A stretch of 49,919 nucleotides of DNA from a virus: IMG/VR virus record IMGVR_UViG_3300044627_001013, positions 1-49,919 of that record; one strand, written 5' to 3'. The notes beneath the pieces were generated by a model. It was not told the DNA's origin. It was given only the letters and a program-made list of their open reading frames with translations, and did not search any database. The translations under genes and the position numbers were made by a program. Every line of letters begins with the position of its first letter. Position 1 is the first letter of the stretch. Shown here piece by piece: positions 7,102 to 45,206 of the stretch.

Positions 7102-10100
7102 ATGACACGCATTAGAACTTTAGATTTTCTACCAGAAATTTTTCAAACGCCAACAAATGAGCAATTTTTGTCGGCTACCCTTGATCAATTGGTAAATCCA
7201 CCTGTAACACGTAAGATACAAGGTTTCGTTGGTAGCACTATAGGTTATGGTGTAAATGCTAATGATTTTTATGTAACTGAACCTACTAAAGTTAGAAAAG
7301 ATTATCAATTAGAGCCGGGTGTAGTATTCTTAAAGAATAATCAGGGCAAAGCAAATGATTTTTTAAGTTATCCAGGAATACTAGATGCATTAAAACTTCA
7401 GTATGGATTAACAAATAATAATAATGATTTATTTGAAAGTCAATTTTATAGTTGGGATAGTTTTACAGACCTAGATAAAATTATAAACTTCAATCAATAC
7501 TATTGGTTACCACAAGGACCTCCTGCTGTAGTAGTTACAAACGAAGTTGTGTACCTTGAAAATCAATATGATGTGGTTAGCGCAGAAAATTCATATCAAA
7601 TTAAGCCATTGGGAGCAACTGGATATTCTGATAATCCTACGCTTACTTTGATACGCGGTGGCACTTATACTTTTAATGTAAATCAAGACTCTCAATTTTG
7701 GATTCAAGGCGCTCCCGGAATAAACGGCACTAGTTTAACACAACCTAACTTTAGTGTAAGACTAACAGAATTAGGTGGAGTGATCAATAACGGCGCAGAA
7801 TCAGGAACAATAACCTTTAATGTTCCTGCAAAAGATGCAATGGACCAATACAATTATGAAGCAGGAGTAGGTGTACCTGCATTCGTAGTATCAACAAAAA
7901 GTATAGAACAAATTCAAAATTTACCATTGAGCCAAGTAGGAAATATTGACGGCGTTACTGCATTAAACGGCATCAATATTCTATTTTATAATGCTGATAC
8001 TGAAACTATCACGGGAACTTTCCCATCAGATAATTTCTATAAAATCACATATGATTATAGTTCAAGTCCTGTAGACCCAATCGTTACTCTAGCACCTGAT
8101 GCTGTAATCTACAACGAAGAAAAAATAACTCCTTCATATGGTTCTACTTATATAGGCATTGGTTTTGTCAAAACAACTTCAATTGCACCTATTCCGTTTA
8201 TTTCAGCACCATTGGATACACTGTATTATCAAGATAGTGTGAATCCGAACAAAGTAGGTATTATAAAATTAATTGAAAATAATGATTTAAACACTCTTGA
8301 CGTAGAGACTCAGATATTAGGTAAAAAATCATTTACTTCATCAAATGGAATTAAGTTTACAAATGGATTAAAAGTATCTTTTAGCGGAGATATTATTCCT
8401 ACAAGTTATCAACAAGGCGAATATTATGTAGAAGGAGTAGGTACATCTATTGAATTAATTCCTACAACGGCATTATTAATTCCAGAATCTTTTACTACAG
8501 ATACATCAATTGCGTATGACATGACCAATTATGATATTGAAAACTATGACGAGGCTTTAAACTTACCTTTAACTCCCGACTATATTACTATTGCTAGAAA
8601 TAGTATCAATAAGAATGCTTGGTCACGCAGTAATAGATGGTTCCATAGTCAAGTAATTAGCGACACAGCAGTTTATAATGGTAATCCAAATATATTAAAC
8701 CTTGCTAGCAGTTTTAACAAAGCAAAAAGACCTATACTTGAATTTTATCCTAACTTAAGATTGTTTAACTCTGGCACAGTAGGCAAAGAATCAGTTGACT
8801 TTATTGACACTAGAACCACAGACGCACTTTCAACTGTAGCAGGGCAAGCAGGTTACTATCCTGATGTCAGCACATACACGGCTTATACAGGATCTATTGC
8901 AACAAATCCTACTGTAAATTGCGGAGATTTTATAGTAGGTGAACAATATAAAATTGCAAATCTAGGTACCACAGACGTAACGATTTGGGAGCAATTAGGT
9001 GCGACACTGGGTGTAGACGGACAATTTGTTGTCGGTCAAGAGTACATAATCTGGAATCTAGGTAGCACATCACAAGCAGCATGGAACAAAATTGCTGGAA
9101 CGACCGGTGTCACATACGCAAAAAATTCAACATTTAAATGTGCATATCCAGGTGAGATAATTGGATCTGGTGGAGGTCAGGCATTTAACGTTTTGTTTAC
9201 TGCATTGATTTCGGGATTACTAAATTCTTCTGATTTAGTCTCAGGATTACAATATACAATTGTATCTGTAGGCAGCACACTATGGAATAACATTGGTTAT
9301 GTAGGCACTCCTACAGTAGGTGGAACTTTTACTGCTACCGCTCCAGCCGTAGGTACGGGTACAGCGATACAGGGTAACGGCACTGCGCTAGCACAAACTA
9401 ATACTACGATTACTATCCCCACTTCTGATATCACAGGTACACTAAGTGCAGGCATGTACATCAATGATCTAATATTAGGAGAACAAAGTAAACTGCCTGT
9501 TGGTACACGTATTTTTGATATTATTAGTGGTACTACAACTACAACAATGACTGTAAATTGGCCAACTCCTACTATAGTATTGCCTACCTCAGGAGACGCA
9601 AGTTTTGTAGCAAGTATTAAAAATAATGCTGACTTAGCATTGTTTTCAGGTGCAAGAGTTGTATTCTCTGCCGATACTAATCCAGAAGTTTCAAATAAAA
9701 TTTTTGTAGCCAATTTTTCAACTACGATATCTGGTTCATATCCAGTATTAACTTTTACTGAGGCATTAGATGGAGAAATTTTAACTAATGATCAGTTTGC
9801 TGTTTTACGTGGACAAAACAATGAAGGTGTAAGTTGGTATTATGATGAAGATGAGTTAGGTGTATTGTTCCATGTGGCTCAACAGAAAATCAAAGTAAAT
9901 CAACCTCCAAAATTTGATGTGTTTGATAAAAACGGTATAAGTTTTGGTGACACAAGCATCTATAAGTCAACCACATTCCAAGGTTGCGAATTGTTTAACT
10001 ATAAAGTAAATTTAGGTGGTGTTAACGATACTATTTTGGGTTTCCCTATCACGTTTAGTAGTATTAGAAATACAGGAGATATTTCTTTTGAAGTATCATT

Positions 10101-13100
10101 AAACGTTGACGAATTCAATTATGTTACTGGTTTAGAACAAAATATTACTGAAACAGAAAAAGTTAATACAGGGTATGTGTATAATACGACCGGAAGATTA
10201 ACTTATGAAAGATTACTAGGATGGCAAACTGCGGTTGCCCCAAGCACTCAGTATCAAGTATTTGAATTTCCTTACACACCTCCTAATGTTGTTTTAACTT
10301 CTTTAGATGCAACAACTTTAGATGTTACAGTTACTTGCGATGTTCCACAATTAAATGTTGAAGATACTATATGGCCATCTATTCAAGTCTTTAATAATAA
10401 TAATCTTATCACTGATTATACTGTACAAAATACAGAAACAAGCACTAGTGTAACTGTAAATATCCCTGCACTTGAAAAAACAGTAATCCAAGTTTTAATT
10501 TTAAGCGATAAAGTAAGTACGCAAGCATTTTATACTATCCCTATAAACTTAAGCAACAATCCATTTAATACTGATATTACTTCAGTTGACGTTGGTGATA
10601 TACGTGGTCAATATCAAAGCATATTCTACAATAATCCTGACACTACCGGCGATGTATTTGGAGCAAACAATACACGCGATTTAGGTAATCTCGTACCATG
10701 GGGTAATCGCATTATACAAAATAGTGCAAGTTTAGTAATACCAGGTGCTTTCCTAAGACAAAAAGAGCATAACTTATTTGAAGCACTGTTGTTCAATAGC
10801 AGAGAATATGTAAAGTTTAAATCATTATTAGTAGATACTGCTAATAAGATAGATTGGCAACAACGTTACGATGCAGGTGCATTATTAGATTATACACTTG
10901 ATATTATATCAAGCGTCAAGAATCAAGAGATGCCTTTCTTTTGGTCAGACATGATACCAAACAAGGCTCCTTATATTTCAAACGTCTATAACTTTTTTAA
11001 TAATATCGGAACTACGACATTTGGTTTAAGCAAAGTTTATAATTATGAAACAGCAAACTATAATGGTATTTTAGTTTATCTAAAGCGTAAAGTACAGGGA
11101 ACTACAGTTACAGAGTTATTATATAAAAATATTGATTATACTGTAAGCAAAGATAGCCCATCACTTACTATCACAAAAGATTTAATTACTGGTGATCAAG
11201 TTATCATCAATGAATATAATCAAACTTATGGCTCTTATGTTCCTAATACACCAAGTAAATTAGGATTATATCCTGTAACTGTGCCTAAGGTAATTTATGA
11301 TGAAACATATATTACCCCGACATATTTTATAGTAGGACACGATGGGTCTTATACAAAACTATACGGTCAATATAGTGAATTATATGGTTTAACCGATTAT
11401 AGGGATCAAGTTTTATTTGAGTTTGAGAAACGTGTCTACAACAACATTAAATTAAGTTCAACTATTCCTATTAATGCTGCTGACATTATTCCTAATTATT
11501 ACAAAGATACTACTGAATATTATAATAACTGGTTGACAGCATATTCTCCTGCATTCTTAGATTGGGTAGGAAATAATAAACTTGATTATAAGGATCATAT
11601 TTTTACACAAAGTAATTCATATACATACAACTACCGAGATTCAGGGGCAAAAGTAACAGGTGACTTGTTGCTTCAAGGTAATTGGAGAGGTATATACATT
11701 TACTACTTCAGTACTTCAACACCAGCCACTACACCATGGGAAATGATTGGCTACGCTAATAAACCTGCTTGGTGGGATGAACGTTATGGTCCAAGCCCTT
11801 ATACAAGTGATAACTTAATATTGTGGGCAGATATGTTTGACGGTATTGATTACAATAACGGCAATCCTATAACATTATCTCGCTATAAAAAATCAAACTT
11901 CACTAGAGATACCACTGAGTGGGACACAGAGTTTGAGAACTTTTTATTAATACTTCCTGTAAATGAAGACGGTAGCCAAAAGAGCCCATTGAATTCAATA
12001 GTAGGAACATATGATCCAAGTCTATTTGCAGATCAATGGATAGTAGGCGATCTTGGTCCTGTTGAATTCAGTTATCGTCGCAGCTCAACATGGCCCTTTG
12101 ATTTAGTACGATTGGGCGCTTTATTAAAACCTGCCAACTTCTTTAACTTAGCAGTAGACCTAGACAATTACAAATACAACGCTGAATTTAATCAGTATCT
12201 TGTTAATGATCGCAGCCATCTTGTTCCTAATCAAATACAAATTTATGGTAACGGCACTGCTAAAACAAGTTATATTAACTGGATAGTTGATTATGAAAAA
12301 CAACTAGGCGTAGATGCTACAACTAATATAACTAATTTGTTCAAAAATATAGATGTACGATTAGTCTATAGATTGGCAGGATTCAGCGACAAGACATTGT
12401 TAAAGTTCTTTGTTGAGAAAGGCACACCTAACAGTAGCAATTCTTCTTTGTTAATACCTGATGAAAACTTTAGTGTATTATTATATGAAAATCAACCATA
12501 CACAAAGATAATTTATAGTGCAGTCAGCGTAGAAAAAGTTCCAAATGGTTATCGCGTAGATGGCTTTAGCCAGAATATTAATTATTTCTCAATTTTAAAA
12601 CCTATCAACAACGGTAACGTAAACAACATCATTATACAAGATTTAAGCGTAAAGGTCGCTAAAGATTATACAGATAAAGTTGAAATCGTTGAATATGGAA
12701 GCGTATTCAGAAAAACACAGGATTTAGCACAATTTCTTGCAAGTTATGGACGTTATTTGATATCACAAGGTTGTGAATACGAGTTAATTGAATCAGGAGT
12801 GCAACTTGACTGGAATCAGATGATCGGTGAGTTTTTATATTGGGCACAGATCGGCTTTGTTGATAGTAGCGTAATAACTTTAAATCCAGCAGCAAATACT
12901 CTTGCTATTAATGCAGAAAGTTTGATAGTGCAACCTCTATCTATACACAATAATAACTTTATTTTAAATCAAAACTTATATCCTATTGAAAATAGAGATT
13001 TAAGTATAGTCAGAGAAGGTACATCATTTAGTGTCACTGCACTAAAAGACGGCGATACAATATCTTATGGTCAATTTAACTTGAGTAATATTGAGCATGG

Positions 13101-16100
13101 TATAGTATTTGATAATAAAACTATTTTCAATGATGTCATTTATAATTTAATCACGGGATTAAAACAAAATAGAATTTACTTGCAGGGTACTAAGAGTGCT
13201 GAATGGAACGGCACGATGAATGCAAGTGGATTTATCTATAATCAAGATAATATACGAGAATGGACACCGGCTGTAAAATATACAAAGGGTGAGATTGTAA
13301 GTTTTAAAAACAAGTATTGGACAGCATTAAAAATCGTTCAGCCTTCAAAAACATTCACAGAGGCAGATTGGAAAGAAACAGATTACGATGAAGTTCAAAA
13401 AGGTCTGTTGCCTAACAGCAGCACAAGAAGTTATGAAAGTTCGTTATATTATAATGTAAACGAAGCAAATCTTGAAAAAGATGCAGATCAATTATCATTT
13501 AGTTTAATTGGTTATCGCTCTCGTCCATATATGGTAAGCGCAGACTTAACCGATATCACACAGGTCAATGTTTATAAAAACATGATCAAAGAAAAAGGTA
13601 CACGCGCTATACTAGATGTCTTTAAAGGCGCTGATTTACCTCAAGGCGGAATAGATTACGACCTTCATGAAAACTGGGCAATATTAAACAGTGTGTACGG
13701 TGGCGTGTTACAAAACAATTTCATTGAATTTAAACTCAACCAAAGCAAACTAACAAATAACCCAAGCATCATAGGTTTAACAAATGGTAATCCGGTACAA
13801 CAGGCACAAGAAATTGTTCCTATCTACAGTTTGTTCAATTATGGCAAACCGATAACAAATCCAGATGTTTTACCAACATTGAATTCCAACACACCAAACA
13901 CTATTTTCCCTGATGCAGGATATGTAAACTTTAATGATGTCAAAATGTCATCATACTTCTTTAGTGGATTCCCTGCAGCAGTAAACGAAGCAGGATTAGT
14001 CGTACCTTTAAATAAATTTTATGTAGGTGATTATGCTTATGTTGCAAATTATCTTGCAAACTGGAACGTATTGACACCTAATGTGTTAGGACAGGTCATT
14101 GGGGCTAGATCAAATTTAAATGGTACTACTACGATATTCTTTAGACAAGCACAGACACTACAAATCAATGATATTTTTGCTATTATTAATTTTAATGATT
14201 TAATAAATGGATACTTCACAGTATTACAAGTAGTAAGTCCATATCAAGTTATAATACCATTAAACTTATCAAATAGCACTTTGACATTGACAGGCGAAGG
14301 AATCGCCTATCAGTTCGTATCACAAAGAGTTGCACAACCTAGCGATATCCAAGATTTACTATTATTGAACAACGAATTTGTAAGCAATAAAGTTTGGGTA
14401 GATACAAACAATGATGGTGGATGGGCTGTCTATCGTAAAGGAATCAATTACGAATTTGACATTGAATTCACAAAAGATACACTACCTGACGAAGAGAAAA
14501 ATGATACAAGCACATTTGGTAGTGCTGTGTCCTACACTACACAAGGAGACTTTTTATTCAGTGATGCAGGCATGGGTCGTGTGTTTAGATACCAATATGA
14601 TCCTATCACTGAAGTTTACGATCCTGATCAAATTATTGAAAAAAGTACCTCATTCGGAACAACAATCGTAAAAGGACAAAACATTTTTGCGATCTCACAG
14701 CCTGTAGGCACACCAAAAGTATTCCTGTACTATGTCAACGACACATACGTTACAGATGATATCAATCCTTTACAAGAGATTAGTGCCCCAGTTGGATGTA
14801 CAAATTTTGGTTCCAGCATGGCAATGTCCGGTGATAGTAACTGGCTGTTTATAAGTGATTTTGATGATGCTGAACCTGTCGCAAGAAACAATGTACATGT
14901 TTACAGAAGAATTAATGGCATATTCAACGCTAACGAATTAGTAAATGGCACCTATTATGAGATTATAAGTTTAGGAGCAAACGATTTTACAAATGTAGGC
15001 GCTCCAGAAAATAAAGTAGGAATTATTTTTCAAGCAACAGGACCTTTAGTATCTACTGCAGGAACTTTCGTCATAGGTGAACAGTATACTATTAGTTCAT
15101 TAGGTACTACTGACTGGTCAGCAGCAGGCTGGCTACCAACTAATGTGGGCGAGACACCTTCACCGGGCGATACTTTCACAGCAATAAGTATAGGATCAGG
15201 AACTGGTACTGCTATTCCGTTTAATCAAGGCACTGTAATTAAACGCAGTTATGAATTTATTACTACTATAGCGGGTCCAACAGTTACAATAGATAAGTTT
15301 GGAAGTTCAATAACTACAAATTATTATGGAGACGTAGTAACTATAGGTGCTCCCAACGAAGATTTTGATGCATCAACTGAAAATTGGGGCAAGGCTTATT
15401 ATTATTCTAGATCAATACAAAATTTTGAAACACAAACAGCATCAACAAATGATCCGACAACATTTCAGTTAGCATGGACTCCTGACCCTAGCAAAACAGT
15501 TAATGTTTATCTAAACGGCGTATTAGTAGACGAATCAAATTATTCTATAAGTGGTTCAAGTCTAATATACTCCGGTACTTTCGTCGTAGGCGATATTATT
15601 AAAATAAGCGGTAATAAATTTACATTAAATCAAATTCTCACAACTGAAACTACTCCTAGAATAGGAGTTGGGTTCGGTACAAGCATTGATAATAATAGAT
15701 TTGCCACAGAAATTTTAGTAGGTGCACCGTTCGCTTTAAGTTCTGAAAATGAAGAAGGGGCAGTATATCGTTATACAAATGCCGGAGCAAGATTTGGTAA
15801 TATAACTGGTACTTCTACTGTAGATACAACTGCTAACCGTAAGTTATTGATTAACGGATATGAAGTTACTATTCCAGTAGATAGTGATGCAGAACTAGCA
15901 GCCTTAGCAATAAACACAGCGCAAATAACTAATATCACAGCAACAGCGATAAACAACAAATTAAATATTCAGTTAATAAAACCTGAATTAGGAGTCACAA
16001 ACCAGCAGATAGTATTAACTTCCACAGATGTTGATACTTTTGCAGAGTTGGGTATTGATGTTCTCACACAAACTCAAGTAATACAATGTCCACATTTGAC

Positions 16101-19100
16101 AGGACCAACTCAGTTTGGTACTGTCGTTAAATTTAATGAGTTTAATAGCGTGGCAATTAGTGCGCCAGTAGGCACACGCTATGCTCAAACTACTTTTGAT
16201 TTTATAGATGATTTAGATTTTACTAATGATACAATATTTGACAATAACGCTACACAATTTATAGACACTTATACAAATGCAGGTGCAGTATATTTGTTTG
16301 ATTATCTCTCAAATTACAGAGAATCATTAAACAATATAGGTGCGTTTACATATGCTCAAAGCACAAATGATAAGAGTCAAGTATATGGTTCACAACCTCG
16401 TTATGGTACAGCGTTAGACTTTACAAGTAATAAAGTGATTATAGGCACACCGGGCTATCGTCCAGATGATATAGATGGACAAGTAGTAGTCTACATCAAT
16501 CAAACAGGATTGCCAAACTGGAAAGAATTTAGACAAACAAACGAAATTGTTGATATTAGTAAAATTGATAACAGTCAAATATTCAGTGCTGAGTTGAATC
16601 AAACACTAACTAACTTAGATTATTTTGATCCATTACAAGGTAAATTATTAGGTGCAATACGACAGAATATTGACGTAATTTCTAACATAGATCCTGCGTC
16701 TTATAATAATGATAATAATACACAAAGTGGATTTGTTTGGGGATCGACTCAAGTAGGCACTGTGTGGTTTGATACTTCAAATGTAAGATTTGTAAATTAT
16801 CATCAGAATGATAATGCTTATAATGCGAAATATTGGGGAACATTATTTCCTGGTAGTGACGTAGCAATTTATTCATGGATAGCAAGCGCCGTTCCCCCTT
16901 CTGAATATGAAGGCTCGGGCACACCTAGAAATATAGATTTATATTCAGTTCAAACAGTACTAAATGCATCAAACACTATTGAGCCGGTATATTTCTTCTG
17001 GGTTAAAAATTCTGGAATTAAATTTAGAAATAAGAGTTTAGCAGATGTCAATGTTGCTAATTATATCTTGAATCCATTAGGATCTGGTATAAGTTACATC
17101 GCCCCATTATTACCGAATACATTTGCATTATATAACTGTCAACAATATATAAATGCAAATGATAGCGTCTTACATATAGGTTATTCTTCAGCAAATAATA
17201 CTATTCAACATGAAGAATATCAATTGATCAGAGAAAATTTTGCTAACGATTTCTTACCAGGAGTACCTAATTTTGTTGACGGTAATATAGCACCAAGATC
17301 ATTGTATGATAGATTGATAGACAGTTTAGGCGGTACAGATGAAGTAGGTGCTGTTGTTCCAGATCCATTCTTGCCAAAGACAGTACAAAGTGGTATATTG
17401 GCCCGTCCAAGACAGAGTTTCTTCTATAATAGATTAAAAGCACTTCAAAATTATTTAGAATATAGTAATTCAATATTGAAGCAATTTCCAATCGTAGAAA
17501 TACGTCCTAGAATTCCTTTCTTATTTAAATCAGGAGAATTTTATGACACTTCACTTTATTGGGAATATGTAAATTGGTGGGTTCCAGGATATAATGATAA
17601 TACTAAAGCAATCATGCAGGTACCTGCTTATAATGATTTACTAACTTTAGAGGTAGCACCCGGAAGCATAGTTACTGTATTAGAAAATGGACAAGGTAAT
17701 AGTGAGACTTACATTTATACAGACGAAGGTAAATGGAATCGCATAGGATTACAAAACGGAACTGTTAGATTCAAATCAGAATTATGGGATTATAGTTCTA
17801 ATAATATAGGTTTTGGTAGTGATTTTTATGGCTCACAACCATTTGATAATTATCCTAGCGAAGAAACACGATGGATCATACGTGCCTTAAACGAACAAAT
17901 TTTCACAGATGAATTATTAATTTTCCGTAATAGATCATTAATATTGTTGTTTAATTACATACAAGCAGAATCATATGAAAATCAAAATTACTTGCCATGG
18001 TTAAATAAAACTTCTTTAATTGATGTTTCTCACAAAATTAGAGATTTAAAGCCTATTCAAAATTTCCAAAATGATAATCAAGACTTTTTATCTGGTTATT
18101 TGAACGAGGCAAAACCATATCACGTTGTCATCAAAGAATTTTTATTGACATATACTGGAATAGACTGGTATCAAGGTAATATAACGGACTTTGATTTACC
18201 TGCAGAATATAGTTTTGAAAATCAATCATTTATCAGTCCGGAGTTGGTTTATACTAATCCAACTTTAGTAAGCGAATATTTGCCTAATAATGCTATTTGG
18301 ACAACTCAAAGTTACTCTGAATGGAGAAACAATTACGGTTTAAGTTTGATTGGACAAAACGATTATAACATTTCAACACTACGTTCATACGTCACATTGA
18401 ATAGTGATTTTATTATTGTAGATAACGTTTCTGGTTTCCCTGTAACGGGTACTATAAAAGTAAGTAGTGTCGCAGATCCTAATGTATACGAACTGATTGG
18501 ATATACGCAAGTTAATAGAGACACAAACAGTTTATCAGGATTAATACGCGGAGTTAATGGTACTGAAATTGCATATCATATCCCAGGAGAAAACATTTTT
18601 ATTGATTTACCTGCAATAGTCATACTAGACACAGGTAAAGGATATACCAATCCTCCTAAAGTAACTGCTTTTATTGATACTGCTATATATCCTGAACCAA
18701 GAGAAGAAGCAGTTCTAGAAGCGGTGATGCGTGTTGATAAGGTAATAGGCGTCAATGTTATAAATCCTGGTTCTGGATATGCAGTATTACCTAGAATAAT
18801 AATTGACTCAGCCTACGACTTCACAGTAGATAGCACTAATATCGCTATTAGCCCTGTCAATACACTTGAATTATATGCTCCAGAATTAGTAACAGGAGAC
18901 CTAATAAGATATGTAAGCGGTGAAGGTACAGAAGTAGGCGGTCTTGAAAATAACCAGTGGTACTATGTACGTGTATTAGATAATGTTCCTACAACTATCA
19001 TAGCATTATACACTTCATACGCAGATGCAATTTATGGTGCTGAAAATACCAGAGTGAAAATATTCAGTCAAGGCACAGGATCTCATACATTTAAGTTGGG

Positions 19101-22100
19101 TGCTAAAGCAGCGGCAGTAAGTTCAAGTTATCCAGTAAGAGAAAATAATATCACTCTACGATATGATCGTACAAGTTACAACACACAAATAGTTGATTGG
19201 GAAGCCAATAGTTTTTATGGCTCATTCTTTGCAGGATCTTATAACAATACAGAGAATATTGCAAGTTCAAGTATTACACTAGAAAGCACGTTGCCTGATA
19301 TTGCCAATATGCTTTCAAGCAATCAAGGACTTGTATTACCAATCTCAGAAATTTCTAATTATACTCAACCAGTTTGGTCTGAATTTGAACGTAGCGTAGA
19401 AAGCACTATATCAACAGGCAATAAAATCAGATTAAAACTAAACACTTCAACAGAAAATGCTAGCGGATCAACTATAGGTTTTGTTGAAAATATGCTTGTA
19501 GGTTTTGCTGGTGATCTAGGAACTTCAGGATTACAAGCATTTGATATTGAAACCAAATCTGGCACAGTATATTATATTGCTGAAGTTATAAATGATACTG
19601 ATTTCACTATCAAATCATCATTGACAGGTCCTGTAGTCACTCTTAACTCATTAACTATAAGTGGTTTAGGAGTAAGATGCTATACAGGACAAGACGTGAG
19701 CACTGCGGTAATCGCAACAAATTATCCTGGCATACGAACAGCAACAGCAACTAGCAGCACTAATAATATCGTAACTGTTCCATTAACAACGATAGGTCAA
19801 GGCGGAAGCCAAGGACTATACACAGGTATACCAATTGAATTTGTCGGTAATGTGTTTGGCGGTATTGAAGAAAATATTGTTTACTTTGTGACTTCTGTCA
19901 TTGATAAAGAAAGATTTACAATTTCAGCAAGTGATTCATTTACTAGAATCAAAGCCCTTTATATTGTAAGTGGAAATCAAATTGTTGTACAGAACACTAC
20001 TGGATTGAGTGTAGGTGATCAAATCGTATTCAGTAACATGACTATTAATGGTAACCAGGTTACTAATTTTGGTAACATAGTTGCTGGTAATTTTTATTAT
20101 GTAAAATCAATTGGCATCAACACTATTACAATAAGCACAACATTGGGCGGTGCAGTATTTACAGTCACAACTGTAGCATCAAGCAGCAACACTTATTGTT
20201 TCTTTGTAAGTCAAGAAAATAATGTAGAATTAACATCTGCGACAGGAAACATGACTGTCAACGTACAGTTGCCTGCAAGTCCTGGACAAGTTAACGGACA
20301 GCAATTTATATTCTACTCATCAAGTCAAGAATTTGAAAATATTACTTCTATAAATTACGGTAATCTTGTAGAAAGCAGTATATTAAAAACAGTACCACCT
20401 AGCGGATCTGTCCCAGTCAGTCAACAGAATTATATGATTTTAGATCGTGATGCAGGTGGAATACAAAGAGTATATAAAGGATTACCGATCACAGTAGGTA
20501 CAAGTATAGGTGGTCTAACAGCAGGAACTGCATACTATGTTAACACGTTTGGTAATGTAACATTACAAGGTACTTCATCTTCAAGTTCAGATAACACAAT
20601 AACAGTGAGCCTAACAACCACTACTACTAATTTAATGGTAGACATGCCTATAGTGATATCAAACTTCCCACTAGGTGGATTACAAATAGGACAAACTTAT
20701 TATGTACATAGTATTGTAGACTTGACTAATTTTAAAGTAAAAGCCACTTTAACTGGAGGTGTAGCAAGTTTAGTTAATACTGTAGGTACTGCTACAATCA
20801 CGGGAGCGCCATATATAACAGTATCAGACACTTATAATGGTGCAATAAAAACTTTAAGTCCTGGAACAGGCCCTGTAGATTTAGTACAGAAAATTACAGA
20901 AGCACCTACTTTTGATATTGGCTATCGTTTAGGTGGCTACACAGCAATTATAAGTAGCGGTGGTAAAGGATTTACGGTTGATAATACTATAAGCATTGCT
21001 GGAAACCTATTAGGCGGCACTACTCCTTCAAATGATTTGACTATCGTAGTAAATCAGATTAATCCTGTAGTAGAAGGCGAATATGTTTGGTCATTACCTC
21101 TACAATCAGAAGGAAATATTACTAGCGTAAACTGTCAAGGTAATCCTAATGATATAGTTGAAAGTTATTACTTGAAGGTAGCAGGTGCAAATACTTTCAA
21201 TGTTTATAGCGATCCTAGAATGACAGTTCCAGTTTCAGCAGACGATTTAGCCTTTGTAGGATATACGGTTACCACTGCTACAAATGTAACAGCAAGTGAT
21301 GATAGAGTTACGGTTACAAGTTCTACAGACTTTAATGTAAACGATCCTGTAGTGTTTACAGGTACGATGTTCTCAAATGAGATTGTGTTAGGTCAAATAT
21401 ATTATATCTACGACAAACCTACATCAACTACAGTTCGTCTAACTAACAATCCAGGTGGTACAGTAATTAATTTTGCGGATGATGCTAACGGTTCTATGAC
21501 TATGGCTACTGCAGGTAGTTTCATGTTCTTACCTGAACCATTCTACTTTACTCCAAGTATCGTAAAATTCAATAATAAAACTTATGTTTGTGTCGTATCA
21601 AACAATGACAGCGACTTTAATATCGGTAAGTGGGAAGAATTAGATAGTGGAGATCGCAGATTAAATGCACTAGACCGTGCATTCGCATATTATCAACCTG
21701 ATGTTAATATGCCGGGCGACGAGTTAACGCAGTTATTTACTGGATTAACATATCCAAATACAGTATATCAAGGAAATGCATTTGATCCTGCCGATCAGTT
21801 TACTGTTGATACTATATTACAAGATCAAGAATTTTATCCAACAGGAGTAAACGTAGAAGCAATTACGTTTAACGGTGTAAATTATATTGCTCCTGCAAAT
21901 TTACCTAATTCAAGTGTCTTGGCTATGGATATTGAAGTCTCAGATAATTGGCTATTAGGTAAACTAAGTGATTATCCATTAGGTTTGACTGATATCATAA
22001 ACAATAATGGTATCTATGTAATGACGACTACAAATTCAGCAACACCTATCATGAAGAGTGTTAATGGATATGTATTCTCAAGCAATGGGTACTTCATCCC

Positions 22101-25100
22101 TTATGACACAGATCCTGTTGATATCCCATATGAAAAAATATTATTAACACAAGCAGAACTTTCATTACACAGCGTAATATATCATAACAACAAATATATT
22201 GCTGCTGGTAATACATTATTATTAAGTGATAGCACAGGCACAGTTTGGACAGAAGTTTATAAGTTTGATACTGACTCAGGGTATTTCTATGATGTCTCTT
22301 ATGTTAATACATCATTCTTTACAGGGTATGTTGCAGTAGGTACCGACAATAGCACAAAATTAATTGTCTACAGTACTGACGGAACTACTTGGACTAAAGT
22401 AAGTTCATCAGATTATATCGGAACCGCAAATAATTCAACATTAAATTCTGTAACATACAACAACAATGTAATAGTTGTAGTTGGTAATAACGGTACTGTC
22501 TATCAAGCCTCAGCATTAAATGCATGGACATTAATATTAAGTTCTGGTAAAAACTTAAATGATGTGATTTGTGTAAACAATGTATTCACAGCGGTAGGCG
22601 ATGATGGTGTTGTTAAAGTAAGTACAACTAACGGTACATCCTGGACTGAACGTGCAACCGGCACATTAAATGATCTTAACGTAATATATTATGAAACATC
22701 AAATGCAACTTATACGATAGGTGGTGATGATAATACATTACTACAAACTTCAAATACTACTACTGATCCAGTAGTTTGGGATAGAACGCAGGTATTTGCC
22801 CTAGTAAAACCTGTCTATACTGTTCAAGGTGATCCGTTCCAAGCAGGTTATGGCCCGGAAGAATTAGTACCTGGTGTAGTATCAGACCAGTTGACTATGA
22901 TAGTCACTACAAGAGCAGGTACTAACTGGTCAGCAACACAGTATGCACATGTTGGTTATAATGTTGTATCAATTGAATTAGATGCAAACGCAGATAATGT
23001 TTATAGTTTCGCTGATGTAGTACAGGTGCCTGCATGTATTAGCGTATACATAATTGGAAGTGATGGATTATGCACTACAATCTATGAAGGAAATGGCTAT
23101 ACTAGCGATTATGTCAATAAAACAATTGAACTTGATACTAACATTTCTGATCCAGAAAAATTAAGAATTGATGTTTATGAAGTAGGAAACGGAGATCAAT
23201 TAATCAAATCAAGTACACAGATAAATCCTTTGATTGAAAATTCTGCTACTGGATTCCAAGAAGTATTTTTAAATTGCAATTACTCAGCATTTAGATTTAC
23301 AACAGGAGGTATAATCAAACCTGCTACTGATCCTATTGACGCTCAAGTATTTTCAACAGATAATACAACTAATACTATGGTAGTTGATGATGCGTCATTG
23401 TTTATTTTAAATTCAGCAATATACTTTACAGGTGATGTGTTTGGTGGAGTTGTTGCAAATACTAATTACTATGTAAAATCTATTAACCTAGTTAGAAATA
23501 GTATTTCAATAAGTAGCACTCTAGTTGATGGCATAGCAGGTCCAATATTTGACTTAACCACTGATTCTGGCTCAAACATGCAAGCAGTAATTCAGAATGG
23601 TCCAGGACAATTCTATACTGAACCTGCTGTATTCCATAACGGAATACGTTTACTTTCAGGTATAAGCAACACAGTCATCAAAACTAAGTCAAGCAACAAT
23701 GCCCTAGTAACATATAGCACAGTTGGGCTTGTCGCTAATCAGCAAATCGTATTTGATAAGAATATATTTGGTAACTTGAACGGCAATCAAGTTTACTATG
23801 TGAAAACTATCATTGATGATACTCAGTTTACAGTTTCTCTGACTGCTGGTGGGTCAACCGTAACATTAATAAACGCTTCAGGTGTATCTAACTTTATCAC
23901 AAATGATTATGCTGTAACTCTTGCTATAAATCAAATCAATGCAAACTTAGTATTCGCAACTGATTATGACACTGCTGTAGATTACATCTCATTTAGTTTC
24001 TTTAACGAAACTGACCCTGAACAATATGGTTACACAGTTCCAGAAATAGAAACATTCAATGGTGATGGCACTACAGGAGCATACACTTTATCTAACTACA
24101 TGGGCGAAGGTAATGCAACTAATGCTATTGTTGAAGTTGATGGCTTACGCATCATGCCAAATCAATATACAATATATTCTGGATTAAACTCACTTGTATT
24201 TGATTCAATAGCACCTGATGCAAATAGCACAATTAGTGTGATATCATTTAATGATACCAAGCGTCAATATTTTAATACACAATACGAAACTACTAGCAAA
24301 TATGTTACACCAATAGACAATGTTGAAAATACATTTAGTTTCCCATTATTAGATACTCAAACTGCTGCTTCTGTCGGGGGCTATTTTATCGCAGCCTCAA
24401 CAACAGGCATGGTGTTAGGACAGTCTGTCATGTTCCAAGTAGACATACCAGGTAGCACTCCAGTCTACGCAGGTTTCGGCGGCGTAAGAACTGACGGTAC
24501 TGTGTATACACTAAGTGAGATCAACACAGTTACAAATCAATTTAAAGTTCAAGACCAATATGGCACAACTTATCCTACTGTAAATCAAACAGGCTTGATG
24601 CACGTAGTAGTTGGAGGTCAGCCAACTGTGCGTATTGAGACATCAGATGCTCATCATTTAGATACAAACGATGTAGTAAGGATCGATGGATTAACTGGTA
24701 GCATACAGTTAAACAATAACGTGTTCTATGTTCATGTAATCACAGATAATATATTTGACATTTATCTGACTGAATTTAGCCCATACGTAGATGGTATAAA
24801 TGAGCCAGTAACATTGTGCGATGCTTATGTGAGCGGCGGATATGTTTGGTTAGATCAAAGTTGGATGTTAGAAACAACTGCTGCTGTAGAATGTGATACT
24901 ACACAAATCACTGCTTTAAGCGTGGTAAATTTAATTGTCAATACTCCAATAACATTTACTGAATCAAATGTATTGATTGGTGAAAGCACATCAATTCCGG
25001 AAATAATTGCAGGCAATATCTATTATATTAGATCAATTGATTACGACAATAATTCATTCACTATCAGCGAAACACCAGACGGTAATATCTTAACTTTAAC

Positions 25101-26619
25101 AAGCACAGGTGGTACTAGTGTTTGGACAGTAAATCACGATCTTAACACACAATTTGTAAGCGTAACTCCTATCTATGATAGTAATGTTGCTGTGACAGGT
25201 CGTTATAATTATCCTGAAATTTATTATAACAATGCTAATACTTGCACTATCACATTTGATCAAATAACTCCAGGGTATGCAACTATAGTAGGCGATAGTT
25301 CAAATGTATCAGGATACTACTTACATGAACAGTCCTCAGCAAGCACCACATGGACTGTAAATCATAATTTAAACAATCAGTATGTTGTAGTGGCACATGC
25401 TAATGTTGGCGATTATTCTTGGTACGGTAAGTATGATGGGGCAGCAATAACTTATACGAATGCAAATTCTTTAACATTGACATTTAATTCTGCACAAGCG
25501 GGTAATGTTGCTGTGATATCTGATAGCGATTTAGTTGGATATTATAAACATACACAAACAACACCAAGTACCACTTGGACAGTCAACCACAATCTAGAAA
25601 CTCAATATCTAAGTGTCACACCAGTGTATCCTAACAACTTGTCAATGGTAAGCACTTATAATTTCCCTGAAATTGTTTACAATAATGAAGATACTTTGAC
25701 ATTGACATTCACAAGTCCGCAAACTGGTAACGTGATTGTAGTAGGTGGCGGAGAAGGATCATACACACAACGTATAGGAACAAACTTAAGAGTTTCACAA
25801 TGGGTACAGACTAATGTTGATAGACTCTGGGTAACTGTGAATGGTAAGCGCGTACCATCAAGTTTGTTGAAATTAAATCCTGGTAATCAAATAAGCATTT
25901 TGACACCTATCACTAGCGGTGACGAAATCATTATAACTAGCATGATGCCTTCAGCAAGCCCTGACGAAGATGTATATATCAACATGGTTGACAAGAATAA
26001 CCAAGGCGCTGTGTACAGAGCAAACGCAGGAACTAGAACGTGGATCAATAAACCACTGTCAGAATTTGATACTATCATTCCAGTAGAGGATGCAAGCAAT
26101 TTGATTAGTTTAGAAACTCAAAGCAACGAAACTCTAGCAGAAGAATTAGGCTATTACTATATAACAGTAAATGGTAGTAAGACTGGAATATTAAACGTTT
26201 CAATCTACAATGAAACTAAGGGCCAATTTATTGAATCAGATTATATATCAATCATAGTTGAAAGTGCTGGAGCAGTATTAAAAATAACAGCTGGTCTATG
26301 GATAGAAGAAGATGACATATTGACTATTGATATTGACTATGGAAATAGCGTTTATATCAATGGTGAGTATATGCAATTATTAAGTGTTGATACTGTTGCT
26401 AATGAAATCACAGTAAGACGAGGAATTTTAGGTACAAGCACACAAACTTATATACCAAAATATGCGACTGTTTATGGATTATTAGACAACAATAGAATGA
26501 GTAATATACAATATAGTAAGACTTGGAACACTATTCCTGGAGACTATGATGCAAGTTTAGGAGACCCATTGCAGATCGCGTCAAGCACTGCTGCTGAATT
26601 CTTAAGAATGGATGTTTAA
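7102..26619 (+). CDS. Giant 6505-aa baseplate-wedge/tail adhesin protein
   Basis: One uninterrupted frame of 6505 codons (about 700 kDa), in the position of T4 gp7. The N-terminus (residues 1-143) carries SWDSFTDLDKIINFNQYYWL. Residues 1190-1800 are Trp/Tyr-rich wedge-like sequence. Around 2053-2085 lies a CBM5/12-like stretch (YTKGEIVSFKNKYWTALKI). FGSA/FGTS segments in residues 2470-3140 resemble an FG-GAP propeller. A second wedge-like core is at 3440-3720 (LNEAKPYHVVIKEFLLTYTG). Residues 4240-6000 hold at least eight PVVF-type modules ending in YYVKSI. A BNR/YCF48-like propeller is near 4985-5230, and three VNHNL tandem repeats lie at 6007-6217. No membrane segment or protease motif is obvious. 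I infer a baseplate-anchored structural protein with receptor-binding modules. The exact gp7 assignment rests on gene order, and an early assembly error hiding stops is unlikely because the frame is clean. Confidence 0.7.
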   Translation: MTRIRTLDFLPEIFQTPTNEQFLSATLDQLVNPPVTRKIQGFVGSTIGYGVNANDFYVTEPTKVRKDYQLEPGVVFLKNNQGKANDFLSYPGILDALKLQYGLTNNNNDLFESQFYSWDSFTDLDKIINFNQYYWLPQGPPAVVVTNEVVYLENQYDVVSAENSYQIKPLGATGYSDNPTLTLIRGGTYTFNVNQDSQFWIQGAPGINGTSLTQPNFSVRLTELGGVINNGAESGTITFNVPAKDAMDQYNYEAGVGVPAFVVSTKSIEQIQNLPLSQVGNIDGVTALNGINILFYNADTETITGTFPSDNFYKITYDYSSSPVDPIVTLAPDAVIYNEEKITPSYGSTYIGIGFVKTTSIAPIPFISAPLDTLYYQDSVNPNKVGIIKLIENNDLNTLDVETQILGKKSFTSSNGIKFTNGLKVSFSGDIIPTSYQQGEYYVEGVGTSIELIPTTALLIPESFTTDTSIAYDMTNYDIENYDEALNLPLTPDYITIARNSINKNAWSRSNRWFHSQVISDTAVYNGNPNILNLASSFNKAKRPILEFYPNLRLFNSGTVGKESVDFIDTRTTDALSTVAGQAGYYPDVSTYTAYTGSIATNPTVNCGDFIVGEQYKIANLGTTDVTIWEQLGATLGVDGQFVVGQEYIIWNLGSTSQAAWNKIAGTTGVTYAKNSTFKCAYPGEIIGSGGGQAFNVLFTALISGLLNSSDLVSGLQYTIVSVGSTLWNNIGYVGTPTVGGTFTATAPAVGTGTAIQGNGTALAQTNTTITIPTSDITGTLSAGMYINDLILGEQSKLPVGTRIFDIISGTTTTTMTVNWPTPTIVLPTSGDASFVASIKNNADLALFSGARVVFSADTNPEVSNKIFVANFSTTISGSYPVLTFTEALDGEILTNDQFAVLRGQNNEGVSWYYDEDELGVLFHVAQQKIKVNQPPKFDVFDKNGISFGDTSIYKSTTFQGCELFNYKVNLGGVNDTILGFPITFSSIRNTGDISFEVSLNVDEFNYVTGLEQNITETEKVNTGYVYNTTGRLTYERLLGWQTAVAPSTQYQVFEFPYTPPNVVLTSLDATTLDVTVTCDVPQLNVEDTIWPSIQVFNNNNLITDYTVQNTETSTSVTVNIPALEKTVIQVLILSDKVSTQAFYTIPINLSNNPFNTDITSVDVGDIRGQYQSIFYNNPDTTGDVFGANNTRDLGNLVPWGNRIIQNSASLVIPGAFLRQKEHNLFEALLFNSREYVKFKSLLVDTANKIDWQQRYDAGALLDYTLDIISSVKNQEMPFFWSDMIPNKAPYISNVYNFFNNIGTTTFGLSKVYNYETANYNGILVYLKRKVQGTTVTELLYKNIDYTVSKDSPSLTITKDLITGDQVIINEYNQTYGSYVPNTPSKLGLYPVTVPKVIYDETYITPTYFIVGHDGSYTKLYGQYSELYGLTDYRDQVLFEFEKRVYNNIKLSSTIPINAADIIPNYYKDTTEYYNNWLTAYSPAFLDWVGNNKLDYKDHIFTQSNSYTYNYRDSGAKVTGDLLLQGNWRGIYIYYFSTSTPATTPWEMIGYANKPAWWDERYGPSPYTSDNLILWADMFDGIDYNNGNPITLSRYKKSNFTRDTTEWDTEFENFLLILPVNEDGSQKSPLNSIVGTYDPSLFADQWIVGDLGPVEFSYRRSSTWPFDLVRLGALLKPANFFNLAVDLDNYKYNAEFNQYLVNDRSHLVPNQIQIYGNGTAKTSYINWIVDYEKQLGVDATTNITNLFKNIDVRLVYRLAGFSDKTLLKFFVEKGTPNSSNSSLLIPDENFSVLLYENQPYTKIIYSAVSVEKVPNGYRVDGFSQNINYFSILKPINNGNVNNIIIQDLSVKVAKDYTDKVEIVEYGSVFRKTQDLAQFLASYGRYLISQGCEYELIESGVQLDWNQMIGEFLYWAQIGFVDSSVITLNPAANTLAINAESLIVQPLSIHNNNFILNQNLYPIENRDLSIVREGTSFSVTALKDGDTISYGQFNLSNIEHGIVFDNKTIFNDVIYNLITGLKQNRIYLQGTKSAEWNGTMNASGFIYNQDNIREWTPAVKYTKGEIVSFKNKYWTALKIVQPSKTFTEADWKETDYDEVQKGLLPNSSTRSYESSLYYNVNEANLEKDADQLSFSLIGYRSRPYMVSADLTDITQVNVYKNMIKEKGTRAILDVFKGADLPQGGIDYDLHENWAILNSVYGGVLQNNFIEFKLNQSKLTNNPSIIGLTNGNPVQQAQEIVPIYSLFNYGKPITNPDVLPTLNSNTPNTIFPDAGYVNFNDVKMSSYFFSGFPAAVNEAGLVVPLNKFYVGDYAYVANYLANWNVLTPNVLGQVIGARSNLNGTTTIFFRQAQTLQINDIFAIINFNDLINGYFTVLQVVSPYQVIIPLNLSNSTLTLTGEGIAYQFVSQRVAQPSDIQDLLLLNNEFVSNKVWVDTNNDGGWAVYRKGINYEFDIEFTKDTLPDEEKNDTSTFGSAVSYTTQGDFLFSDAGMGRVFRYQYDPITEVYDPDQIIEKSTSFGTTIVKGQNIFAISQPVGTPKVFLYYVNDTYVTDDINPLQEISAPVGCTNFGSSMAMSGDSNWLFISDFDDAEPVARNNVHVYRRINGIFNANELVNGTYYEIISLGANDFTNVGAPENKVGIIFQATGPLVSTAGTFVIGEQYTISSLGTTDWSAAGWLPTNVGETPSPGDTFTAISIGSGTGTAIPFNQGTVIKRSYEFITTIAGPTVTIDKFGSSITTNYYGDVVTIGAPNEDFDASTENWGKAYYYSRSIQNFETQTASTNDPTTFQLAWTPDPSKTVNVYLNGVLVDESNYSISGSSLIYSGTFVVGDIIKISGNKFTLNQILTTETTPRIGVGFGTSIDNNRFATEILVGAPFALSSENEEGAVYRYTNAGARFGNITGTSTVDTTANRKLLINGYEVTIPVDSDAELAALAINTAQITNITATAINNKLNIQLIKPELGVTNQQIVLTSTDVDTFAELGIDVLTQTQVIQCPHLTGPTQFGTVVKFNEFNSVAISAPVGTRYAQTTFDFIDDLDFTNDTIFDNNATQFIDTYTNAGAVYLFDYLSNYRESLNNIGAFTYAQSTNDKSQVYGSQPRYGTALDFTSNKVIIGTPGYRPDDIDGQVVVYINQTGLPNWKEFRQTNEIVDISKIDNSQIFSAELNQTLTNLDYFDPLQGKLLGAIRQNIDVISNIDPASYNNDNNTQSGFVWGSTQVGTVWFDTSNVRFVNYHQNDNAYNAKYWGTLFPGSDVAIYSWIASAVPPSEYEGSGTPRNIDLYSVQTVLNASNTIEPVYFFWVKNSGIKFRNKSLADVNVANYILNPLGSGISYIAPLLPNTFALYNCQQYINANDSVLHIGYSSANNTIQHEEYQLIRENFANDFLPGVPNFVDGNIAPRSLYDRLIDSLGGTDEVGAVVPDPFLPKTVQSGILARPRQSFFYNRLKALQNYLEYSNSILKQFPIVEIRPRIPFLFKSGEFYDTSLYWEYVNWWVPGYNDNTKAIMQVPAYNDLLTLEVAPGSIVTVLENGQGNSETYIYTDEGKWNRIGLQNGTVRFKSELWDYSSNNIGFGSDFYGSQPFDNYPSEETRWIIRALNEQIFTDELLIFRNRSLILLFNYIQAESYENQNYLPWLNKTSLIDVSHKIRDLKPIQNFQNDNQDFLSGYLNEAKPYHVVIKEFLLTYTGIDWYQGNITDFDLPAEYSFENQSFISPELVYTNPTLVSEYLPNNAIWTTQSYSEWRNNYGLSLIGQNDYNISTLRSYVTLNSDFIIVDNVSGFPVTGTIKVSSVADPNVYELIGYTQVNRDTNSLSGLIRGVNGTEIAYHIPGENIFIDLPAIVILDTGKGYTNPPKVTAFIDTAIYPEPREEAVLEAVMRVDKVIGVNVINPGSGYAVLPRIIIDSAYDFTVDSTNIAISPVNTLELYAPELVTGDLIRYVSGEGTEVGGLENNQWYYVRVLDNVPTTIIALYTSYADAIYGAENTRVKIFSQGTGSHTFKLGAKAAAVSSSYPVRENNITLRYDRTSYNTQIVDWEANSFYGSFFAGSYNNTENIASSSITLESTLPDIANMLSSNQGLVLPISEISNYTQPVWSEFERSVESTISTGNKIRLKLNTSTENASGSTIGFVENMLVGFAGDLGTSGLQAFDIETKSGTVYYIAEVINDTDFTIKSSLTGPVVTLNSLTISGLGVRCYTGQDVSTAVIATNYPGIRTATATSSTNNIVTVPLTTIGQGGSQGLYTGIPIEFVGNVFGGIEENIVYFVTSVIDKERFTISASDSFTRIKALYIVSGNQIVVQNTTGLSVGDQIVFSNMTINGNQVTNFGNIVAGNFYYVKSIGINTITISTTLGGAVFTVTTVASSSNTYCFFVSQENNVELTSATGNMTVNVQLPASPGQVNGQQFIFYSSSQEFENITSINYGNLVESSILKTVPPSGSVPVSQQNYMILDRDAGGIQRVYKGLPITVGTSIGGLTAGTAYYVNTFGNVTLQGTSSSSSDNTITVSLTTTTTNLMVDMPIVISNFPLGGLQIGQTYYVHSIVDLTNFKVKATLTGGVASLVNTVGTATITGAPYITVSDTYNGAIKTLSPGTGPVDLVQKITEAPTFDIGYRLGGYTAIISSGGKGFTVDNTISIAGNLLGGTTPSNDLTIVVNQINPVVEGEYVWSLPLQSEGNITSVNCQGNPNDIVESYYLKVAGANTFNVYSDPRMTVPVSADDLAFVGYTVTTATNVTASDDRVTVTSSTDFNVNDPVVFTGTMFSNEIVLGQIYYIYDKPTSTTVRLTNNPGGTVINFADDANGSMTMATAGSFMFLPEPFYFTPSIVKFNNKTYVCVVSNNDSDFNIGKWEELDSGDRRLNALDRAFAYYQPDVNMPGDELTQLFTGLTYPNTVYQGNAFDPADQFTVDTILQDQEFYPTGVNVEAITFNGVNYIAPANLPNSSVLAMDIEVSDNWLLGKLSDYPLGLTDIINNNGIYVMTTTNSATPIMKSVNGYVFSSNGYFIPYDTDPVDIPYEKILLTQAELSLHSVIYHNNKYIAAGNTLLLSDSTGTVWTEVYKFDTDSGYFYDVSYVNTSFFTGYVAVGTDNSTKLIVYSTDGTTWTKVSSSDYIGTANNSTLNSVTYNNNVIVVVGNNGTVYQASALNAWTLILSSGKNLNDVICVNNVFTAVGDDGVVKVSTTNGTSWTERATGTLNDLNVIYYETSNATYTIGGDDNTLLQTSNTTTDPVVWDRTQVFALVKPVYTVQGDPFQAGYGPEELVPGVVSDQLTMIVTTRAGTNWSATQYAHVGYNVVSIELDANADNVYSFADVVQVPACISVYIIGSDGLCTTIYEGNGYTSDYVNKTIELDTNISDPEKLRIDVYEVGNGDQLIKSSTQINPLIENSATGFQEVFLNCNYSAFRFTTGGIIKPATDPIDAQVFSTDNTTNTMVVDDASLFILNSAIYFTGDVFGGVVANTNYYVKSINLVRNSISISSTLVDGIAGPIFDLTTDSGSNMQAVIQNGPGQFYTEPAVFHNGIRLLSGISNTVIKTKSSNNALVTYSTVGLVANQQIVFDKNIFGNLNGNQVYYVKTIIDDTQFTVSLTAGGSTVTLINASGVSNFITNDYAVTLAINQINANLVFATDYDTAVDYISFSFFNETDPEQYGYTVPEIETFNGDGTTGAYTLSNYMGEGNATNAIVEVDGLRIMPNQYTIYSGLNSLVFDSIAPDANSTISVISFNDTKRQYFNTQYETTSKYVTPIDNVENTFSFPLLDTQTAASVGGYFIAASTTGMVLGQSVMFQVDIPGSTPVYAGFGGVRTDGTVYTLSEINTVTNQFKVQDQYGTTYPTVNQTGLMHVVVGGQPTVRIETSDAHHLDTNDVVRIDGLTGSIQLNNNVFYVHVITDNIFDIYLTEFSPYVDGINEPVTLCDAYVSGGYVWLDQSWMLETTAAVECDTTQITALSVVNLIVNTPITFTESNVLIGESTSIPEIIAGNIYYIRSIDYDNNSFTISETPDGNILTLTSTGGTSVWTVNHDLNTQFVSVTPIYDSNVAVTGRYNYPEIYYNNANTCTITFDQITPGYATIVGDSSNVSGYYLHEQSSASTTWTVNHNLNNQYVVVAHANVGDYSWYGKYDGAAITYTNANSLTLTFNSAQAGNVAVISDSDLVGYYKHTQTTPSTTWTVNHNLETQYLSVTPVYPNNLSMVSTYNFPEIVYNNEDTLTLTFTSPQTGNVIVVGGGEGSYTQRIGTNLRVSQWVQTNVDRLWVTVNGKRVPSSLLKLNPGNQISILTPITSGDEIIITSMMPSASPDEDVYINMVDKNNQGAVYRANAGTRTWINKPLSEFDTIIPVEDASNLISLETQSNETLAEELGYYYITVNGSKTGILNVSIYNETKGQFIESDYISIIVESAGAVLKITAGLWIEEDDILTIDIDYGNSVYINGEYMQLLSVDTVANEITVRRGILGTSTQTYIPKYATVYGLLDNNRMSNIQYSKTWNTIPGDYDASLGDPLQIASSTAAEFLRMDV
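8920..9372 (+). repeat. LGTTDW-type module, first block in the giant protein
   Basis: Two adjacent copies of a GEQYKIANLGTTD-like unit (about residues 607-750) with the pattern 'Gx(Q/E)Yx(I)xxLGxT', each followed by a glycine-rich FxAxxxGxGT end. A related block occurs 6 kb downstream at 14932-15237. Such modules are probably small beta domains in phage adhesins; function unknown. Confidence 0.6.
14932..15237 (+). repeat. LGTTDW-type module, second block in the giant protein
   Basis: Residues about 2611-2712 contain NGTYYEIISLGANDFTNVGA followed by GEQYTISSLGTTDWSAAG and a GSGTGTAI end, matching the block near residues 607-750. It is inserted within the propeller-like region, suggesting a mobile or recombining module. 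Confidence 0.6.
19820..25090 (+). repeat. Dispersed PVVFTG...YYVKSI modules (at least eight copies)
   Basis: Degenerate units of 35-45 residues share a pattern: (P/Q)(I/V)xF, an FGG- or FGN-like turn, an N/G then (V/N)YYVKSI, and a closing (F/I)(T/S)(I/V)S strand. Clear copies start near nt 19820, 20010, 20480, 20640, 21340, 23415, 23740 and 24940. Examples are GDVFGGVVANTNYYVKSINL and FGNLNGNQVYYVKTI. They lie in the C-terminal third of the giant protein and are probably a repeated beta domain of an adhesin shaft. Confidence 0.65.
25120..25745 (+). repeat. Three tandem WTVNHNL repeats of about 75 aa
   Basis: Three head-to-tail copies start at nt 25120, 25348 and 25573 (residues 6007, 6083, 6158), spacing 76 and 75 aa. 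Each opens with (V/T)WTVNH(D/N)L followed by a Q(F/Y) strand, then a YNNANT- or YNNEDT-like turn and a LTLTF strand. DNA identity has decayed while the protein pattern is kept, so the duplication is old. Confidence 0.85.
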
Positions 26620-26622
26620 TAT

Positions 26623-26787
26623 ATGATAAATAAGTCAATAGATACTAAATTGGAAAATAGCGAGAAAAAAGAGGATAAACCAGTCAGTAAGCCTAATGAG
26701 CAGTCTGGTGTTTATTTCTCTAGTCACGTTAAAATTTATGATCCAAACTCTAACGAAGTTTTTGTACAAAAGAGGGCCGATGATTAA
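26623..26787 (+). CDS. 54-aa mini-ORF echoing the next gene's N-terminus
   Basis: The ATG lies 3 nt after the giant gene's stop, and the stop shares one base with the next gene's start (TAATG). The protein begins with a charged Lys/Glu-rich stretch (residues 1-26) and ends with SHVKIYDPNSNEVFVQKR. This closely matches FLKIYDPNSLEVFVDKK at the start of the following 204-aa protein. It could be a truncated paralogue, a small structural adaptor, or the product of a partial duplication. An AGAGGG inside its end (26771-26776) serves the next gene. I do not recognise a function. It is likely expressed, given its exact fit between two genes. Confidence 0.6.
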   Translation: MINKSIDTKLENSEKKEDKPVSKPNEQSGVYFSSHVKIYDPNSNEVFVQKRADD

Positions 26788-27401
26788 TGATTACTGTAAG
26801 TTATAAAATTGAAGGATTCCTTAAAATCTACGACCCTAACAGTTTAGAAGTGTTTGTAGATAAAAAGAACGCCATCAATTACGAAAACATGAGCGAAGCA
26901 TTAGCCGACACATTAAGTAATCGCGGTTACGGTGAAATTTATCAGATGGCTTTTGGTAACGGCGGTGCGTCAGTTGACGAGACAGGGGTGATAACTTATT
27001 TGCCACCTAACACTACAGGTCAAAACGCAGCTTTGTACAATGAAACTTACGCTAAGATTGTTGACGATACTAGCGTGTTCAATTTAGATCCTACACGTAA
27101 TAAGATGACCGTAAATCATACTTCAGGTAAATTATATTCTGACATATTGGTACAGTGCTTATTAGATTACGGCGAGCCTTCCGGGCAAGCAGCCTTTGAT
27201 AATAGCACTCAATTAGACGGAAATTTTACATTTGACGAGTTGGGATTATTAGCAAATTATGGTACTGACAGTGATGGTAATGTAATTACAAGATTATTAA
27301 CTCATGTGATATTCCATCCTGTTCAGAAGTCACTAAACCGTCAAATTCAGATTGATTATACAGTAAGAATTCAAAGTTTGACAAACCTACTAACTATATA
27401 A
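26787..27401 (+). CDS. Probable baseplate/tail structural protein (204 aa)
   Basis: 204 aa, beginning with the FLKIYDPNSLEVFVDKKNAI segment shared with the preceding mini-ORF. Then come NYENMSEALADTLSNRGYGE, a Gly-rich turn (MAFGNGGASV), and a C-terminal half with FDELGLLANYGTDSDG and THVIFHPVQKSLNRQIQIDY. I recall similar proteins beside fibre genes in aquatic T4-like phages but cannot name a T4 counterpart; it lies where gp8 would follow gp7. No signal peptide or membrane segment is seen. Translation is likely coupled to the mini-ORF (one-base overlap), with a usable AGAGGG ribosome site 10 nt upstream. A structural role is inferred from its neighbours. Confidence 0.65.
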   Translation: MITVSYKIEGFLKIYDPNSLEVFVDKKNAINYENMSEALADTLSNRGYGEIYQMAFGNGGASVDETGVITYLPPNTTGQNAALYNETYAKIVDDTSVFNLDPTRNKMTVNHTSGKLYSDILVQCLLDYGEPSGQAAFDNSTQLDGNFTFDELGLLANYGTDSDGNVITRLLTHVIFHPVQKSLNRQIQIDYTVRIQSLTNLLTI

Positions 27402-36510: not shown

Positions 36511-36522
36511 GTGAGTATATAA

Positions 36523-37752: not shown

Positions 37753-37756
37753 CCTC

Positions 37757-45156: not shown

Positions 45157-45194
45157 TTTTTTATACATATCTATAGTTGTTAAATAGATGTGAC

Positions 45195-45199
45195 AGGAG
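45195..45199 (+). promoter_or_regulatory. Ribosome-binding site deciding a TTG start
   Basis: A clear AGGAG ends 7 nt before TTG 45207, an ideal spacing. This favours the TTG over the longer open frame beginning at 45177. The 50-nt gap here (45157-45206) has no clear terminator. Confidence 0.7.
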
Positions 45200-45206
45200 A
45201 AAAAAC

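Follow-up and report, generated by a model that had tools for sequence, protein, structure and literature searches.

A 6505-residue single-frame protein of a jumbo-phage baseplate cassette: a long form of a known family with a proposed wedge-peripheral role

The window analyzed here, a 49,919-nucleotide stretch of an uncultured virus (IMG/VR record IMGVR_UViG_3300044627_001013), encodes a protein of 6505 residues (positions 7102–26619, + strand; hereafter the giant) that is a longer form within an established family of jumbo-phage baseplate-cassette proteins and not an isolated oddity. We consider it likely, with a probability of about 0.68, that the giant is a jumbo-myovirus baseplate wedge-peripheral subunit at the place of gp7 with built-in host-contact arms.

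A single frame and its family

The frame of the giant comprises 6505 codons, starts with ATG, and contains a sole, terminal stop; the predicted product has a mass of 716 kDa and a pI of 4.4. The longest stop-free run in shuffled DNA (200 base shuffles, three frames each) was 175 codons, and such runs reached at most 164 codons in the other five real frames of 7102–26619. A contig from a different IMG/VR dataset (G012) is 99.96% identical to the giant at protein level up to its own end at codon 5428, and the frame of another (G014; 83.5% identical) stays open for 5011 codons. Complete single frames of 5807–6747 aa were found in 15 related contigs (G001–G011, G015, G017, G019, and G022), the last four of which stop at 6483, 6529, 6436, and 6598 codons, respectively. 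In addition, the frame following gp6 was open to the end of the available DNA in all 75 IMG/VR loci extending past gp6, a set in which frames were seen up to 3332 codons and many loci are near-duplicates. The dN/dS values ranged from 0.02 to 0.27 across all compared 500-codon blocks of the giant, these ratios being rough because dS was near saturation. Purifying selection thus acts all along the frame.

The sequence-only reading had described a clean single frame of 19.5 kb and had named two findings that would refute it, an assembly fusion and separate gene products from internal starts; the latter are still compatible with the sequence. That the window stems from a metagenomic record for which no reads were available would favor a fusion or a chance frame, but we rejected a fusion because of the near-identity of G012, the complete single-frame relatives, and the low nonsynonymous change along the frame, and with the shuffles these observations also rule out a chance frame. 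The probability of either is practically nil, except as regards the copy number of three tandem repeats (HNL; 25105–25773), short of which the near-identical G012 coverage stops. Collapse or expansion of these repeats by the assembler is itself unlikely, since the copies are just 43 to 48% identical to each other. The described frame was therefore confirmed.

The giant was assigned to the phrog_10938 family of giant virion structural proteins on the basis of its frame, profile and tblastn matches, and relatives. It matched the family profile (length 3324) with E values of 1.8e-121 (residues 1–1666) and 5.2e-99 (residues 1667–3332). A tblastn search with the giant matched 58 phage records, and the matches in a BFVD search were other phage members of the same family. 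Family members in isolates span 3326 to 4555 aa and occur in RaK2 (3326 aa), PBECO4, GAP32, CBB (CBB_236; 3340 aa), PHA46, Vibrio 2.275.O, SCTP-2, PA5oct (gp355; 3857 aa), Atu_ph07 (gp180; 4449 aa), and Phosso (4555 aa). More than 500 stretches in IMG/VR are related. Outside the window's clade, the open frames of IMG/VR relatives cover 2613–4924 codons, some being cut by contig ends. The clade of the window is the long branch of a large family, with 5807–6747 aa versus 3326–4555 aa in isolates. The earlier suggestion had placed the giant at the extreme of known phage protein sizes; it is longer than all isolate proteins found in the family but is not the longest of its own clade, in which the maximum is 6747 aa; a literature search on record-size phage proteins gave nothing usable. 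Virion presence holds for two homologues: PA5oct gp355 is marked ESI-MS/MS in its record, and CBB_236 was represented by 21 unique peptides from virions (7.7% coverage; PMC5259590). In the related phage AP-J-162, a 4455-aa structural protein adjoins a 1198-aa wedge protein (PMC11242549). As a host hint, GTDB genomes were scanned with the core of the giant and yielded no relative, and a search for tRNA genes in the window found none.

Gene order, conserved core, and added modules

The features described below up to position 27401 are on the + strand. The giant is preceded by genes for a gp5-like baseplate hub/tail lysozyme homologue with an open 5′ end (1–3147; phrog_13211, E 7e-12), a gp25-like baseplate wedge protein (3156–3605; PF04965, E 2.3e-6, above the cut-off; phrog_43), and a gp6-like baseplate wedge protein of 1147 aa (3651–7094; phrog_10646, E 1e-257). 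The giant lies directly 3′ of gp25–gp6 in PA5oct, Phosso, Atu_ph07, GAP32, RaK2, PBECO4, Vibrio 2.275.O, PHA46, and CBB. The exception is Salicola phage SCTP-2, in which the gp6-like gene sits elsewhere, about 90 kb from the giant; the gene preceding the SCTP-2 giant (L004:5633–14923) is itself 9.3 kb long.

Downstream, the giant is directly followed by a conserved small ORF of 54 aa (26623–26787) that is present in relatives (48–54 aa in six of six clade members examined; 41 aa in PA5oct and 42 aa in Atu_ph07, in the corresponding position). The motif HVKIYDPNSNEVFVQKR of this ORF is similar to the N terminus of the next cassette protein (26787–27401; 204 aa, phrog_11259, conserved in relatives), as though either had arisen as a copy of the other. 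The product of 27431–28375 is a tail protein whose Peptidase_G2 intramolecular-chaperone (autoproteolytic) domain scores just over the Pfam cut-off. Further on are six adjacent radical-SAM genes (32610–39984), four of them with SPASM domains, followed by an epimerase gene (41372–42349) and a B12-binding radical-SAM gene (45177–47513); radical-SAM genes likewise lie shortly downstream of the giant in Atu_ph07 and Phosso.

Alignment with the isolates revealed core runs that total about 2190 residues, most of them before residue 3710. They include the N terminus common to all isolates (residues 3–138; 7102–7515), runs between residues 841 and 1287 (9622–10962), runs to residue 2048 that form the most conserved stretch by alignment and occupancy (11227–13245), and a second conserved block (residues 3141–3709; 16522–18228). 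Structure models of residues 1–1150 and 1100–2290 had mean pLDDT values of 55 and 44, respectively, with the N-terminal 140 residues, the part considered for a gp7-type helical core bundle shared with two gp6 copies, under 50, so that only single domains are readable and a wedge fold is not demonstrable. Fold searches with these two low-quality core models accordingly retrieved single inserted domains and no wedge fold, and PDB sequence searches with gp6, the N terminus, the core, and the arm retrieved nothing convincing.

Several domains are inserted into loops of the core. Residues 147–395 (7540–8286) form a predicted cupredoxin-like beta sandwich (VIA-align Z 8–9 to rusticyanin and laccases) that is largely missing from isolates, as indicated by low occupancy. 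Three GTTD-type repeats, which are clade-specific and variable in number, follow at residues 607–755 (8920–9366). Another insert of low isolate occupancy (residues 1288–1375; 10963–11226) is an adaptor-like beta domain that resembles, with middling Z scores of up to 8.4, the tail-fiber adaptor domains of the P1 baseplate, CBA120 TSP4, and the T7 gp17 N terminus. Residues 2049–2096 (13246–13389) resemble a CBM5/12 (chitin-binding type 3) domain: the fold matched Milano and 7-7-1 baseplate/tail-fiber proteins (Z 7.3; rmsd 1.6–1.9 over 45–47 residues), and the Pfam match (E 0.02) was below the cut-off. All 12 aligned clade members have this insert, and the nine isolates compared lack it at this site. 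PA5oct and Phosso possess a CBM5/12-like domain, also below the curated Pfam cut-off, in a different loop near window residues 1836–1851, suggesting that sugar binding may have been gained repeatedly, in different loops of different lineages. Two further GTTD-type repeats (residues 2610–2704; 14929–15213) lie within an FG-GAP-like repeat stretch (about residues 2470–3140; Pfam FG-GAP only E 0.097). This stretch and a second one (residues 5021–5183) look like beta propellers by eye, the Pfam matches being weak.

The C-terminal arm (residues 3710–6505; 18229–26616) is 2.2 to 5 times as long as the equivalent part of the isolates, with 2044–2833 residues past residue 3700 in the clade versus 534–1302 in isolates. 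A tblastn search of phage records with window positions 21001–26616 gave no match. FCCH-like repeats, most of them in the arm, number 9–17 per clade member and 0 in nine isolates; the giant has six copies at residues 4095–4803 (19384–21510) and five at residues 5412–6010 (23335–25131). The best match, to PF16190 at residues 5842–5898 (E 4.3e-6), was below the curated cut-off. Repeat count correlated with protein length (r = 0.50, n = 16), explaining length only in part. The HNL repeats, of about 75 aa each (residues 6002–6224; 25105–25773), were found in the window giant only, among 25 giants compared; their profile matches were to phrog_21918 and to the end of phrog_24148, whose family name is HNH endonuclease. 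The nonsynonymous share relative to G014 was 0.05–0.12 before codon 4000 and 0.16–0.19 at codons 4001–5000, and that relative to G015 was 0.19–0.29 in most blocks before codon 4000 and 0.27–0.31 after it. The arm has thus changed more than the core at the amino-acid level, which fits a host-contact arm without proving it. The wedge-like and adhesin-like modules proposed from the sequence alone were supported in part, by the core encoded beside gp6 and by the clade-specific CBM5/12-like, adaptor-like, and repeat modules.

Proposed role in the baseplate and alternatives

The baseplate of T4 contains six gp7 monomers, each of which links gp6, gp8, gp9, and gp10 and has a domain that swivels upon baseplate opening (PMC3004832); the 242-aa gp7 orthologue of phage XM1 holds the tail spikes via flexible parts (PMC10457771). 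We propose that the conserved core of the giant would dock on the gp6/gp25 wedge where T4 has gp7. The loop inserts and the 2800-residue arm, with their carbohydrate-binding-like, adaptor-like, and repeated beta modules, would reach outward and either touch the host surface or hold spikes and fibers, and host contact might be relayed to the wedge, helping to trigger sheath contraction. Judging from position and analogy, the inserts and arm may hold or replace peripheral adhesion parts. The baseplate position, outward orientation, sugar binding, triggering role, and copy number (six if T4-like) are all inferred by such analogy. Against this proposal we counted the undetected T4 gp7 homology, the separate gp6-like gene of SCTP-2, the poor core models, and the CBM5/12 and FCCH Pfam scores below the curated cut-offs.

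Two of these points would suit a structural tail protein outside the wedge, such as a tail-surface or fiber component encoded beside gp6, namely the undetected gp7 homology and the separation of the giant from the gp6-like gene in SCTP-2. Whisker-like structures whose origin is unassigned also occur on the related phages CBB and Atu_ph07 (PMC5259590, PMC6102473), but GAP32, RaK2, and others have the giant without reported whiskers, and the place after gp25–gp6 is kept in all other isolates examined; we thus regard such a component as rather improbable. We attach a similarly small probability to a chain that is made whole and cut during assembly, so that the virion would contain a wedge part from the N terminus and a detached fiber-like part from the C terminus. 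The sharp end of the core near residue 3709 and the faster evolution of the arm are consistent with cleavage, and the Peptidase_G2 domain of the 27431–28375 product indicates that the phage does have tail parts that cleave themselves. However, a chaperone or protease domain was looked for in the giant and not found, and the single frame is kept in all relatives.

Extending the wedge-peripheral reading, T4-type peripheral adhesion parts might have been absorbed into one chain, such that about six copies of 0.7 MDa would act at once as wedge subunits and as arms that bind the host, and module exchange would serve to change host; we offer this tentatively and think it unlikely. The window's clade is an uncultured one, present in many metagenomes, in which an already giant baseplate protein has been nearly doubled by loop inserts and a repeat-rich arm. 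Comparison of the short and long forms separates common machinery from added contact surface and yields module boundaries fit for expression and testing. That separate lineages carry the same type of putative sugar-binding domain, each in another loop, suggests that the baseplate core accepts host-contact modules.

Comparison with gp7, VrlC, and isolate giants

The gene for T4 gp7, a baseplate wedge protein of 1032 aa, lies directly after gp6, as does that for the giant, but gp7 is six times shorter and sequence homology was undetected. An hhalign comparison of the giant with a 28-sequence T4 gp7 profile gave no match, the control sensitivity being uneven, and neither did profile comparisons with T4 gp6–gp10 and the HTVC008M baseplate proteins. 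As a control, the window gp6 found HTVC008M gp6 at 94.5% and T4 gp6 at only 13.6%; since the window gp6 is barely linked to T4 gp6, the lack of a gp7 match says little. The gp7 placement of the sequence-only reading therefore stands for gene order, in the window and in relatives, and not for homology, and the label is positional because homology to neither T4 gp7 nor VrlC was detected. VrlC of pelagimyophages and cyanomyophages is a large protein reported to replace the missing T4 gp7 (PMC7029224), and in this respect is like the giant. It has 2001 aa in HTVC008M and is encoded two genes past gp6, unlike the giant, and a comparison of the giant with this single VrlC sequence showed no profile similarity. 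The isolate phrog_10938 giants share with the window giant a common core and the same order after gp25–gp6, at 22 to 28% identity over aligned columns, whereas the members of the window's clade are 1250–3400 residues longer and carry FCCH-like repeats, GTTD repeats, and insert domains that the isolates lack.
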